Of a stretch of DNA of 33,192 nucleotides, positions 20,847 through 26,988 are shown one piece after another. The notes under the pieces are model-generated. The model saw only the letters and a list, made by a program, of their open reading frames with translations, made no database searches and had not been told where the DNA came from. This DNA comes from Gammaproteobacteria bacterium. Its GTDB lineage: Bacteria; Pseudomonadota; Gammaproteobacteria; UBA4575. Where the stretch lies: assembly GCA_013001685.1 (NCBI GenBank), contig JABDMD010000185.1:1-33192 (forward strand), read 5' to 3'. How positions within the stretch are numbered: position 1 is the stretch's first letter; every line of letters begins with the position of its first letter. The position numbers and the translations under genes are program-made.

Positions 20847-22253
20847 TTAAGATTGAAACATTCCCAATTCCTGAATCTTCCTAGTCAAAGTATTTCTACC
20901 CCAACCCAAAAGCTTTGCAGCTTCTTGGCGTTTGCCACTGGTTTTACGCATCGCTGCTTTAATCATAATCGCTTCGAACTCAGGTAATGCTCGATCTAGT
21001 ATGGATTCATTACCTTTAGATAATTCACGATCAGCCCATTCACTTAACAATGCTTGCCAACTTGCAACATCTGCAACTGACATTTCATCCTTAAGCATTT
21101 CCGCCGGTAAATCTTGCATACGGATTTCTTTACTAGACGCCATTACTGTTAACCATCGGCAAACATTTTCTAACTGACGAATATTTCCAGGCCAAGCTAA
21201 AGCGCTTAAGTACTCAATAACTTCACTAGAAACTTTTTTTGTTTCGGTTTCTAATTCTTTAGCAGAAGCGTTCATAAAATGTTGTAGTAAAGCGGGTATA
21301 TCTTCTTTACGTTCTCGAAGTGTCGGTAGAACAATGCGAATTACATTTAGGCGATGAAAAAGATCTTCACGGAAATCTCCATTACGTACTCGCGCCTCAA
21401 GGTTTTGATGGGTGGCTGCGATGATGCGCACATCGGCTTTGATTGACTGATGTCCACCAACCCTATAAAAATTTCCATCTGACAACACGCGTAACAAACG
21501 AGTTTGTAAGTCAGCGGGCATATCACCAATTTCATCTAAAAATAAAGTTCCGCCATTGGCTTGTTCAAAGCGACCTTTACGCTGTGCTTGTGCACCTGTA
21601 AATGAGCCTTTTTCATGTCCGAATAATTCAGATTCTAATAGCTCACGGGGTATTGCAGCCATATTTAGTGCAATGAAAGGACCATCTGCACGAGGACTAT
21701 TATCATGCAAGGCTCGTGAAACAAGCTCTTTACCCGTTCCAGATGCACCATTAATTAATACAGTTACATTAGAATTTGAAAGCCTGCCAATAGCACGAAA
21801 TACTTCTTGCATAGCAGGTGATTCGCCAATGATATTAGGCAATTCTTCTGCAGCTTCTTCAGGCTTATCCGTTACAACTTCTTCATTCGCAGCTAAGCAT
21901 GCGCGCTTAGTAATCTCTACTGCATCTTCTACATCAAATGGTTTAGGTAAATACTCAAACGCCCCTTTTTGGTATGCACCAACTGCACTTTGCAAATCTG
22001 AGTGTGCCGTCATGATAATTATTGGTAACTCAGGATGATCTAGCTTTATGCGATCTAAGAATTCAAACCCGTCCATGCCTGGCATACGCACATCGGTAAG
22101 AATTGCAGTTGGAGTATCTGTTTCAAGTTCATGAATTGCAGTAACAGCAGATTCAAATGTAGTCACTGGAATCTGCGCTTTTTGAAATGCACGCTCTAAC
22201 ACCCAGCGTATAGCCTGATCGTCATCTATCACCCAAACTTTTGAAATACTCAT
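20847..22253 (-). CDS. ntrC: Nitrogen regulation response regulator NtrC (sigma54 activator)
   Basis: Receiver domain (DDDQAIRWVL, DVRMPGMDG), AAA+ domain (GASGTGKELVSRALH, GSFTGA, GGTLFLDEIGDMP), Fis-type HTH (KRQEAAKLLGWGRNTLTRKIQELGM). Confidence 0.96.
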   Translation of the reverse strand: MSISKVWVIDDDQAIRWVLERAFQKAQIPVTTFESAVTAIHELETDTPTAILTDVRMPGMDGFEFLDRIKLDHPELPIIIMTAHSDLQSAVGAYQKGAFEYLPKPFDVEDAVEITKRACLAANEEVVTDKPEEAAEELPNIIGESPAMQEVFRAIGRLSNSNVTVLINGASGTGKELVSRALHDNSPRADGPFIALNMAAIPRELLESELFGHEKGSFTGAQAQRKGRFEQANGGTLFLDEIGDMPADLQTRLLRVLSDGNFYRVGGHQSIKADVRIIAATHQNLEARVRNGDFREDLFHRLNVIRIVLPTLRERKEDIPALLQHFMNASAKELETETKKVSSEVIEYLSALAWPGNIRQLENVCRWLTVMASSKEIRMQDLPAEMLKDEMSVADVASWQALLSEWADRELSKGNESILDRALPEFEAIMIKAAMRKTSGKRQEAAKLLGWGRNTLTRKIQELGMFQS

Positions 22254-22275: not shown

Positions 22276-23427
22276 TTATTTTTTTATGTTAAAACGATCT
22301 TCATTATTTAACGGAAGTAGTACACGAAACTGTGTATGTCCCGGCATAGAGTCAAACTCAATTAGCCCGTTATGCAAATTAATCAGGTTTTGAGAAATAG
22401 GTAGCCCTAAACCAGTACCATGTTCATTGCCAGACACCATCGGGAAAAAGATTTGTGGTTTTAACTCTGCACTCACACCTGGACCATTATCGGTAACACT
22501 GATCTCAGCAACCAAGCGGTGCATAACATCACCTAAAGTGTATTGCCGTAATACACGCGTTTTAAGCTGCACTTCTGGCTTTTCATTACTCAGATCACTA
22601 ATCGAGGCACGCACCGCGTTACGAACAATATTTAAAATTGCTTGTACCAACAAATCACGATCGGCATGAATTTCTGGAATGCTTGGATCATAATCCACCT
22701 TAAACTCAACTCCACTAGGTGTTTCGGCAAGAGCTAAATGCCGTATATGCTCCAATACATTGTGAACGTTGAGTGATTGTTTAACGGGTGTAACGTTAGG
22801 TCCAAACATACGATCAACTAGTTTTCTTAAACGATCCGCTTCATTAATAATGACATCGGTATATTCGCGCAGAGAAGCCTCGGCAAGTTCTCCAGCTAGT
22901 AACTGTGCTGCACCACGCACACCGCCTAGAGGGTTTTTTATTTCGTGAGCTAAACCACGCAGCATATTTTGCGTAGCTTGCGTTTCAGATAACAAATGTT
23001 CTTCACGGCTAATTCTCACCATGTGATCGACTTTAGATATTTCAAGCAGAGATAGTGTTTCTTCATTTTTAGTAAGTATTGGAATAGTAGAACAATCGAT
23101 GATTAATTCACCTCCTCCTAAACGTTTCATGCATACTTCACGTTGGGTTATGGGGTGACCCTTTCGAATTGAATCTTGTATGTGGTTTATTAATTCATCA
23201 TCTGTATCTTGAATAAAATCAGTTAAAGGTCGACCCAAAGCATGCCGCACACCAGTACTGACTATCTCTTCAGCAGCAGGATTCAAATATTTAATGCAAA
23301 GATCTTCATCAACCAAAAACACCGCTAATGCTAAGTTGTCTAAAATTTTCTTATGCTGATTTATATCTACCAGAGATTCCATAAATGCTGGGATTTCACC
23401 AAATATGTTAGTAGGTGTTTTTGTCAT
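22276..23427 (-). CDS. ntrB: Nitrogen regulation sensor kinase NtrB
   Basis: PAS domain, GLAHEIKNPLGGVRGAAQLL H-box, NIVRNAVRA, TDNGPGVSAEL, GTGLGLPISQNLI. Confidence 0.95.
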   Translation of the reverse strand: MTKTPTNIFGEIPAFMESLVDINQHKKILDNLALAVFLVDEDLCIKYLNPAAEEIVSTGVRHALGRPLTDFIQDTDDELINHIQDSIRKGHPITQREVCMKRLGGGELIIDCSTIPILTKNEETLSLLEISKVDHMVRISREEHLLSETQATQNMLRGLAHEIKNPLGGVRGAAQLLAGELAEASLREYTDVIINEADRLRKLVDRMFGPNVTPVKQSLNVHNVLEHIRHLALAETPSGVEFKVDYDPSIPEIHADRDLLVQAILNIVRNAVRASISDLSNEKPEVQLKTRVLRQYTLGDVMHRLVAEISVTDNGPGVSAELKPQIFFPMVSGNEHGTGLGLPISQNLINLHNGLIEFDSMPGHTQFRVLLPLNNEDRFNIKK

Positions 23428-23526: not shown

Positions 23527-23575
23527 TGCACTAGTATAGTGCATATTGAGAATCAATCTAGTGCAAGATGCACTA
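23527..23575. promoter_or_regulatory. Cluster of NtrC-like heptamer boxes upstream of ntrB
   Basis: TGCACTA-GTA-TAGTGCA (23527-23543) and TAGTGCA-AGA-TGCACTA (23559-23575), both perfect 7+7 inverted repeats. The first matches NtrC-type symmetry TGCACYA-N3-TRGTGCA. Confidence 0.65.
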
Positions 23576-23633
23576 ATTTAGGGCTAAAGCGTGATATTTA
23601 CTGATTAGGTTGAGACTGAATCAACCACTACAC

Positions 23634-24434: not shown

Positions 24435-25844
24435 TTAACAGCTGTAATACATATCAAACTCTACAGGATGAGTAGACATACGTAATTCTGTTACTTCTTC
24501 CATCTTTAGTTCTATGTAGCCATCGATGCAGTCATCTGAGAATACGCCACCGGCTTTAAGAAAGTCACGATCATTGTCTAACGCTTCTAAAGCTTGATCG
24601 AGTGAAGAACAGACGGTTGGGATTTTCTTTTCTTCTTCAGGAGGCAAGTCGTATAAATCTTTATCGTTTGCAGGGCCTGGATCAATCTGGTTTTGAATTC
24701 CATCTAAACCAGCCATCATCATTGCTGCAAAAGTAAGATAAGGATTACCTGTTGGATCACCAAAGCGAACTTCAATTCTGCGTGCCTTTGGGTTAGATTC
24801 GTAAGGAATACGAATCGATGCAGAACGATTACGCGCAGAGTATGCCAACATAACCGGAGCCTCAAATCCTGGTACTAATCGTTTGTAGCTATTTGTGCTT
24901 GCATTAGAGAATGCATTAATCGCACGCGCATGCTTAATGATACCGCCAATGTAATACAACGCAGTTTGTGAAAGATTACCGTAAAGATCGCCTTGAAATA
25001 AATTATTGCCTTCTTTAACTAATGACATGTGTACATGCATACCGCTACCGTTATCACCAACGATGGGTTTAGGCATAAATGTCGCTGTCTTACCGTAGTT
25101 ATGCGCAACGTTATGAACTACATATTTTAAAATTTGGTTCCAGTCTGCGCGCTCTGTAAGAGTGCTGTATCGCGTACCAATTTCGCATTGGCCTGCAGTG
25201 CCTACTTCATGATGATGAACCTCTACAGGAACTCCCATTTCTACAAGCACTTGGCACATTGCTGAACGAAGATCTTGTAATGAATCGACAGGAGGAACAG
25301 GGAAGTAACCACCCTTAACACCCGGACGATGGCCAATGTTGCCATCTTCAAAATGCTTACCTGAGTTCCAAGCCGATTCGTCAGAGTCAACTCTATAAAA
25401 TGAACCTGACATCTCAATGCCCCATTTAACATCGTCAAATACAAAAAATTCTGGCTCTGGTCCAAAGTTAACAGCGTCCGCTATACCGGTTGAATTTAGA
25501 TATGCTTCTGCTCGTCTGGCTACAGAACGTGGGTCACGGCCGTAACCTTCCATGGTTGAAGGCTCAAGAATATCGCAACGTAAAATCATAGTGGAATCAC
25601 TAAAGAATGGATCAACTACGGCTGTGCTTGGGTCTGGCATTAAAATCATGTCTGATTCATTAATTCCTTTCCAACCCGCAATCGATGAACCGTCAAACAT
25701 TTTGCCCGACTCAAATATACTTTCTTCTACAGTTGAGGCTGGCACAGAAACGTGCTGTTCCTTACCTTTTGTATCCGTAAACCGGAAATCAACGAATTGA
25801 ATATCTTCGTCTTTTATTTTTTTGATCACATCACTCGCGGACAT
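24435..25844 (-). CDS. glnA: Glutamine synthetase type I
   Basis: [47 protein letters not shown], adenylylation-site motif DLYDLPPEE. Confidence 0.98.
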
Positions 25845-25985: not shown

Positions 25986-26001
25986 AGCACAATGCGTGCC
26001 A
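25986..26001 (-). promoter_or_regulatory. Sigma54 (-24/-12) promoter of glnA
   Basis: Minus strand reads TGGCACGCATTGTGCT: GG and GC at correct sigma54 spacing, 15/16 to TGGCACG-N4-TTGCW. Predicted TSS is near 25975. Confidence 0.75.
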
Positions 26002-26086
26002 TTAGAATTTAGAACGCACTCTAATAAAGCTAATGCAGCATTATACGCAGCTTTTTGCCAAGATGTGAGAAGGCAAATACTAATAT

Positions 26087-26126
26087 AAGCACTATCTTGG
26101 TGCTAGCCAGCACCAAGATAGTGCTT
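26087..26126. promoter_or_regulatory. Twin NtrC-like enhancer as an 18-bp perfect inverted repeat
   Basis: AAGCACTATCTTGGTGCT-AGCC-AGCACCAAGATAGTGCTT. Each arm holds a GCAC(C/T)-N5-(G/A)GTGC site; site centres at 26096 and 26117 are 21 bp apart. Confidence 0.75.
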
Positions 26127-26465
26127 GATGTAATTTGAAAAATTATTTGGGAAGAAAACGAGTATACGTACATTTGCCTTATGAACTCGTGACGAGAAAA
26201 AAAACAATACAAGATTATTGAAGACCAGGGTCTATTGCCACTCATTCATTTAATAAAAATATCATTATAAAATGTAATGGTTTTATCCCTGCATATGGCC
26301 CACTGAAACGACTATTTATTTGCCGTGATTTGTCACCATAGGTCAAATAATGCAGACAATTTTCGTCCAATTGATAGCTCGATCACATCGCTAACTATTG
26401 CTAAATAACAAGTAAACAACAGCCCATCAGTAGGTTACTGATTCAGCTTAAAGTAAGCATGATGT

Positions 26466-26481
26466 TGGCATAGGCCTTGCT
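26466..26481 (+). promoter_or_regulatory. Sigma54 (-24/-12) promoter, divergent from glnA
   Basis: TGGCATAGGCCTTGCT: TGGCA and TTGCT at exact sigma54 spacing. Predicted TSS is near 26492, just before the GGA-hairpin region. Confidence 0.7.
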
Positions 26482-26547: not shown

Positions 26548-26676
26548 ATGGGCGTATCAACTGATGTATTCACAATTGTGTATATCGTATGGATCGCCGC
26601 AAGTATGGCAGCGTTAGCTTGGGCTTATCGACACACGGTTAAGAAAAAACTTTGTGGCGACAGCAACCGCGCTTAA
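26548..26676 (+). CDS. Small single-TM protein (42 aa), not in ORF track
   Basis: ATG preceded by GGAGG. Translation MGVSTDVFTIVYIVWIAASMAALAWAYRHTVKKKLCGDSNRA: one hydrophobic helix followed by a KKK cluster. Confidence 0.55.
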   Translation: MGVSTDVFTIVYIVWIAASMAALAWAYRHTVKKKLCGDSNRA

Positions 26677-26960
26677 ATACAGAAAGGATTCATTTTAAAG
26701 CAAGGATGCTTTATCAACACATACGGAAATGTGTGCAATGAAATGTAGAGTGGTGAAATGTGAGAAGCATTCACAGCAGGGAACACCTCGGACAAGGATT
26801 GTCGCCTCTACAATTTAAAAGGAAATGACATGTTGTAACTAAGGATAGTTACACCTTACAAGGATGCAACCTAGATAGCTCATCATCAGGAGAGTGTATC
26901 TAAACCGTCTTAGGGAAGAGGGCTGCGAGACAAGGACGTCGTTCTGCAGCACTATTATTA

Positions 26961-26988
26961 AAGGCAAGCACTTAGCTTGCCTTTTTTA
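26961..26988 (+). terminator. Intrinsic terminator of the CsrB-like RNA
   Basis: AAGGCAAGC (26961-26969), ACTTA loop, GCTTGCCTT (26975-26983), then a T tract. Confidence 0.92.

Follow-up and report, generated by a model that had tools for sequence, protein, structure and literature searches.

A perfect palindrome of two NtrC-type sites at glnA faces a divergent sigma54-type promoter that has PilR-like sites of its own

Introduction

Enhancers of sigma54 promoters work from a distance, whichever way they are oriented, and in the glnA enhancer of Escherichia coli the NtrC sites are located at about -108/-140, about 32 bp apart. The published consensus of the E. coli NtrC box is TGCACCAnnnTGGTGCA (PMC8743547), and the hallmarks described for Pseudomonas PilR are TGT-N11-AGA and GTCT elements (PMC6058289). 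As regards decoy RNAs, CrcZ and CrcY are under the activation of CbrB (PMC8657755), and rsmY and rsmZ of P. stutzeri were reported to be without an RpoN box (PMC8249394); no precedent for a CsrA-sponge RNA transcribed from a sigma54 promoter was found in the openly licensed literature.

Here we describe the region upstream of glnA in a gammaproteobacterial genome, contained in a stretch of DNA of 33,192 nucleotides that was analysed as a whole (the window), and its counterparts in genomes of the same family. This region comprises a palindrome made of two NtrC-type sites and, on the other side from glnA, a divergent promoter preceding a GGA-rich, CsrA-sponge-like transcript, referred to below as the sponge. 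Sites, promoters, phasing and conservation were computed for this work, and the coordinates are collected in Table 1.

Table 1. Positions of the features of the glnA-ntrBC region and of the divergent transcript in the window
Feature	Coordinates	Strand	Remarks
ntrC (NR(I)), expected binder of the palindrome	20847..22253	-	NCBIfam TIGR01818 and NF008176
Probable ntrB (glnL)	22276..23427	-	upstream of ntrC; sensor-kinase sequence by eye
Third NtrC-type site	23528..23542	+	about 100 bp upstream of ntrB
glnA, glutamine synthetase	24435..25844	-	orthologues in 16/19 family genomes
glnA sigma54 promoter TGGCACGCATTGTGCT	25986..26001	-	1 mismatch to TGGCACN5TTGCW; conserved across the family
Probable sigma70 -10 box for glnA (TATAAT on the minus strand)	26040..26045	-	in the interval that separates the NtrC sites from the glnA sigma54 promoter; -10 element only
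Perfect 18+18 bp palindrome, whole element	26087..26126	.	two inverted NtrC-type sites; single copy
NtrC-type site GCACTATCTTGGTGC, glnA-proximal	26089..26103	+	about -121 from the glnA TSS; 87 bp to the glnA sigma54 element
NtrC-type site GCACCAAGATAGTGC, glnA-distal	26110..26124	+	about -142 from the glnA TSS
PilR-like site 1 of the sponge promoter (TGACAAATCACGGCA)	26321..26335	-	centre -165; same position in 5/5 g1/g4 genomes
PilR-like site 2 of the sponge promoter (AGACAATTTTCGTCC)	26354..26368	+	centre -132; same position in 5/5 g1/g4 genomes
Sponge sigma54 promoter TGGCATAGGCCTTGCT	26466..26481	+	1 mismatch to TGGCACN5TTGCW; TSS about 26492
Small ORF, 42 aa, first part of the sponge transcript	26548..26673	+	probable single membrane span; conserved in 5 genomes
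GGA-rich CsrA-sponge-like RNA segment, ACAAGGAUG-type motifs	26677..26958	+	GGA excess
Intrinsic terminator of the sponge transcript	26960..26988	+	GGCAAGC-N5-GCTTGCC-T6; present in g1 relatives

The palindrome and the glnA enhancer

An inverted-repeat search identified two arms of 18 nt, 26087-26104 and 26109-26126, which are 100% complementary and separated by a 4-nt centre; an estimate from base composition puts the chance expectation for perfect short-loop inverted repeats of 18 bp at about 1e-5 to 1e-4 in 33 kb. Each arm contains one NtrC-type site, both perfectly matching the consensus GCAC(C/T)A-N3-T(G/A)GTGC, with 21 bp between their centres. In the window GCACN7GTGC occurs three times, versus 0.54 expected, and the strict motif GCACYANNNTRGTGC agrees with the published box of E. 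coli and is matched perfectly at only three places in the 2.64-Mb genome, namely the two palindrome sites and 23528-23542, all of them within the glnA-ntrBC region. When one mismatch was allowed, GCACYANNNTRGTGC gave 19 matches in the genome and the reversed pattern used as control gave 8. NtrC, which is expected to bind these sites, is encoded in the window itself: its sequence scores 726.6 bits with TIGR01818 (cut-off 558.6) and 696.3 with NF008176 (cut-off 620). Upstream of ntrB, the site at 23528-23542 is accompanied by a one-mismatch partner at 23570-23584, 42 bp away, a pair reminiscent of the E. coli glnL operator, and an NtrC-type site is found at the equivalent place in most relatives.

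Comparison of the relatives revealed two arrangements of the NtrC pair at glnA. In g1, g4 and g6 the spacing of the sites is 21 bp and their distance to the glnA sigma54 element 86-88 bp, whereas in g2, g3 and g5 the two figures are 30-32 bp and 61-71 bp, which is also near constant; the spacing figures for G006 were taken from locus coordinates. The gap between the NtrC pair and the sponge promoter varies instead from 263 to 384 bp among relatives. This combination of a rigid phasing to glnA with a drifting distance to the sponge indicates that the palindrome belongs to glnA. Moreover, the g6 genomes keep the 21 bp and 86-88 bp layout although they have no sponge RNA in the glnA interval, and the NtrC layout is therefore independent of the sponge. 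The block GCATTATACGCAGC, at the probable sigma70 -10 box of glnA, is invariant in five genomes.

A previous reading of this DNA, made from its letters only and called here the sequence-only reading, had described a perfect 18+18 bp palindrome of two NtrC-like sites with centres 21 bp apart, as was borne out by the inverted-repeat search and the motif scan, and had proposed a glnA enhancer layout, which agrees with the conservation of paired NtrC sites at a fixed distance from the glnA sigma54 promoter. The distances that it gave, -121/-142 from the glnA start and -375/-396 from that of the sponge, are correct if transcription begins 12 nt after the -12 element. Taken as a whole, the palindrome is very likely the NtrC enhancer of glnA, and its occupancy by phosphorylated NtrC is predicted from these features. 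Under nitrogen limitation, phosphorylated NtrC dimers would fill both sites, assemble on one face of the DNA, two helical turns apart, and contact E-sigma54 through a DNA loop, thereby switching on the glnA promoter at a distance of 87 bp.

The divergent transcript

Nine genomes, belonging to four genera, have the sponge sigma54 promoter with 0-1 mismatches, while its spacer varies freely; the conservation of the promoter despite such a variable spacer is strong evidence that it is used, and this divergent sigma54 promoter is likely to be real. The separate transcript that it would produce opens with a 42-codon ORF, probably for a membrane protein, and the GGA-rich RNA behind it probably sequesters CsrA. 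The ORF opens the sponge transcript in g1 and g4 (five genomes), and its substitutions, distributed 62/35/126 over the three codon positions, are concentrated at the third. The 42-aa protein has no Pfam match, and a search for related loci with its alignment gave matches in only three gammaproteobacterial MAGs. Its Shine-Dalgarno sequence is located in a GACACGGAGGTC hairpin resembling a CsrA site (the hairpin is GACAYGGAGGTC), so that translation of the ORF may be repressed by CsrA.

The 473-nt transcript contains 15 GGA, versus 8.8 in shuffled sequences; across the nine genomes there are 8-17 GGA per transcript, about 1.4-2 times the shuffles, with P of 0.009-0.09 per genome. On the basis of motif and structure, the divergent RNA probably sequesters CsrA, which is encoded in 15 of the 19 family genomes and was not found in this draft assembly. 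The transcript matches no Rfam family at gathering score, the best being PrrB_RsmZ with 18 bits against the 44 needed.

Some variants of the locus were observed in the relatives. In the glnA-glyQ interval of G010 (L022), the sponge sigma54 promoter is deleted and the GGA motifs are decaying, with the upstream TGTCA element intact. G004 and G009 (L027, L028) keep a short GGA-rich RNA beside glnA without the sigma54 promoter; in these small genomes, which lack PilR, it is probably driven by a sigma70 promoter. In G007 (L023) a further NtrC-like site, GCGCTATGTTGGTGC, lies near the predicted RNA start, immediately past the sponge sigma54 promoter on its downstream side.

A UvrY/GacA orthologue was not found in the 19 family genomes, where the best matches are 31-35% identical (30-35% for all those listed), and the two of them that were examined sit beside NarX-like kinases. 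A scan for the UvrY box gave nothing above chance. That no such orthologue was found in the family suggests that sigma54 control may replace the usual GacA route.

Candidate activators of the sponge promoter

A second inverted-repeat motif, TGACAANNNTTGTCA, was defined from six pilA promoters located next to pilSR, belonging to this genome, three relatives of the same genus, G015 and G007, and the matrix was built from those sites only. All six carry TGACAA-N3-TTGTCA or a version with one mismatch, centred exactly at -153, and the only perfect match to TGACAANNNTTGTCA in the genome is the one at pilA; at 2 mismatches there is no genome-wide excess (142 matches, versus 146 for the control). Adjacency to pilSR and conservation are the basis on which we assign this motif to PilR.

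Upstream of the sponge promoter, the pilA motif has its best matches at -132 and -165 (plus or minus 1) in each of the five genomes of g1/g4; in g3/g5 they lie at -189/-190 and at -211/-212, the upstream partner being weak in G007 and G015. Compared with shuffled sequences, the matches at the sponge have P of 0.000-0.02 in eight genomes out of nine; the sites of this genome are the weakest of the set, with 3 mismatches each and P of 0.083. The two sites at -165 and -132 are the most likely enhancer of the sponge promoter, and the odds lean slightly towards PilR as main activator of the sponge in this genome, judging from the motif and its position. If the promoter is driven by these sites, synthesis of the sponge would respond to PilS-PilR signals (type IV pilus) and not to nitrogen status.

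According to an inventory of enhancer-binding proteins, PilR is found in seven of the nine genomes having the sponge sigma54 promoter (G000-G003, G006, G007 and G015) and in none lacking that promoter. The search gave no PilR for G005 (a single contig, 99% complete) or for G013 (95%), and both of them keep the promoter, together with a TGTCA element related to the PilR-like sites; PilR therefore cannot be the activator in all relatives, and the element may be bound by some other protein. In G010, the TGTCA element is kept in the absence of both PilR and the sponge promoter, which suggests that another factor may bind it in that genus. Mapped on a GlnA tree, PilR changes three times and so does the sponge promoter, and their association is in the expected direction; it is not significant, resting on few independent losses (3 pairs).

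Other enhancer-binding proteins are encoded in this genome, namely an NtrX-like regulator with its kinase on C35 (L036) and an FmdR-like protein on C168 (L035), beside a urea/amide-type ABC transporter gene. Proteins of the latter type were considered as sponge activators and rejected: the conserved block upstream of the neighbouring transporter gene is AGAAAC...TTGAAAC-like, and not TGTCA.

Weighing of the alternatives

The best explanation of the locus, with a probability of roughly 0.6, is that the palindrome serves glnA and that the sponge is most likely driven, in this genome, by its own PilR-like enhancer, with NtrC possibly contributing a further input through a loop of about 380 bp. 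The sequence-only reading had recognized two divergent sigma54 promoters, which the promoter scan confirmed with one mismatch each, and a CsrA-sponge-like RNA, in keeping with the GGA excess, from which CsrA binding is deduced; its further claim, that a single enhancer co-activates glnA and the sponge, does not stand as the leading mechanism, given that the NtrC pair is phased to glnA and is kept where there is no sponge. In such a shared arrangement NtrC on the palindrome would activate glnA and would also reach the promoter of the sponge RNA through a loop of about 380 bp, which would link CsrA activity to nitrogen status. Both promoters are indeed of the sigma54 type, whose enhancers are established to work from afar and either way round, and NtrC is the only type of enhancer-binding protein common to all nine genomes with the sponge sigma54 promoter. 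The -24/-12 elements kept in G005 and G013 must have some activator, and G013 has only NtrC and an FmdR-like protein, the presumed site of which is a different motif. However, the NtrC sites are in no fixed relation to the sponge promoter, a variability that lowers this claim without excluding it, because sigma54 enhancers are flexible in distance; NtrC-like sites are found in all family genomes examined that have the glnA locus, whereas only nine have the sponge sigma54 promoter; and the latter has phased sites of its own. Joint activation by NtrC is thus rather unlikely; since PilR was not found in G005 and G013 and NtrC is common to all the genomes, NtrC control of the sponge is weakened rather than refuted. 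The sequence-only reading had itself indicated that a different activator site driving the plus-strand promoter would speak against it, and the analysis comes close to this in silico: a phased pilA-type pair proper to that promoter is present, and its action on the promoter is predicted. In a combined scheme, overlapping both with the best explanation and with joint activation by NtrC, the sponge promoter would receive input from NtrC as well as from PilR or another factor binding the TGTCA element, with the palindrome serving as auxiliary enhancer. Both pairs of sites lie upstream of the same promoter and are conserved in the nine genomes, but glnA alone fully explains the conservation of the NtrC sites, making this scheme unlikely. 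That the palindrome contributes in any way to sponge activation is doubtful.

A different reading takes the palindrome as a transcribed hairpin, a terminator or the end of a mobile element, and not as an enhancer. With 18-bp arms and a 4-nt loop, such a perfect inverted repeat would be able to fold; however, the palindrome is upstream of both sigma54 start sites, it is not followed by a T-run on either strand, and among relatives the NtrC motif is kept and the hairpin is not. Whole-genome blastn returned only its own reverse match and the palindrome, being single copy, is not a dispersed repeat or a mobile-element end. This reading is accordingly very improbable. Weak Rfam miRNA matches on the palindrome were discarded as chance hits that reflect the hairpin shape alone. 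What is conserved in relatives is the two-site enhancer and not the perfection of the palindrome, and perfect arms are not needed for enhancer function. Only G009 is comparable, with the NtrC sites of glnA in a perfect inverted repeat having 19-bp arms and sites 30 bp apart; its glnA upstream region (L028) represents a second, independent case. In the other relatives the two sites are unlike each other, apart from G001, where they are near-identical but in direct orientation. The probable origin of the perfection is template-switch correction, acting between two sites that were alike and each nearly palindromic, as a side effect; as a glnA enhancer the palindrome is ordinary, if very well formed.

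Significance and comparison with known systems

A tentative interpretation, to which we give slightly less than even odds, is that in this gammaproteobacterial family a CsrA-sponge RNA escaped from GacA/UvrY control and is now transcribed from a sigma54 promoter, together with an ORF for a small membrane protein. PilR, the facing NtrC enhancer or both would switch it, and CsrA activity would thereby be set directly by pilus and nitrogen signals. If confirmed, this would mean that the Csr system was rewired from GacA to sigma54 enhancer-binding proteins, and sigma54 control would provide the sponge with a switch that stays off unless its activator is present. The presence of two phased enhancers in one intergenic region also offers a natural test of how neighbouring sigma54 enhancers avoid cross-activation.

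Similarly to glnAp1/glnAp2 of E. coli, the glnA promoter region described here has two NtrC sites upstream of the sigma54 promoter and a sigma70-type -10 box nearby; unlike in E. coli, the sites are 21 bp apart (about 32 in E. coli) and form a perfect inverted repeat, and a divergent sigma54 sponge RNA is found on the other side of the enhancer. The sponge promoter resembles in turn the PilR enhancer of pilA, having the same inverted-repeat motif at a similar distance upstream of a sigma54-type promoter, but its sites are paired and have fewer consensus matches; the motif of the pilA promoters is not the same as the hallmarks of Pseudomonas PilR (PMC6058289).

Like CsrB/CsrC and RsmX/Y/Z, which are controlled by BarA-UvrY or GacS-GacA, the sponge has multiple GGA, many of them in hairpin loops, and a terminal hairpin. 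CsrA is encoded in most relatives and was not found in this draft assembly. Unlike CsrB/CsrC and RsmX/Y/Z, the sponge has a sigma54 promoter and a small ORF, it has no Rfam match at gathering score, and an activator of the UvrY type was not found here. Although CrcZ titrates Hfq-Crc and not CsrA, and the activator differs, CrcZ/CrcY represent the nearest functional analogue of the sponge, as decoy RNAs produced from a sigma54 promoter through an activator of the NtrC family.
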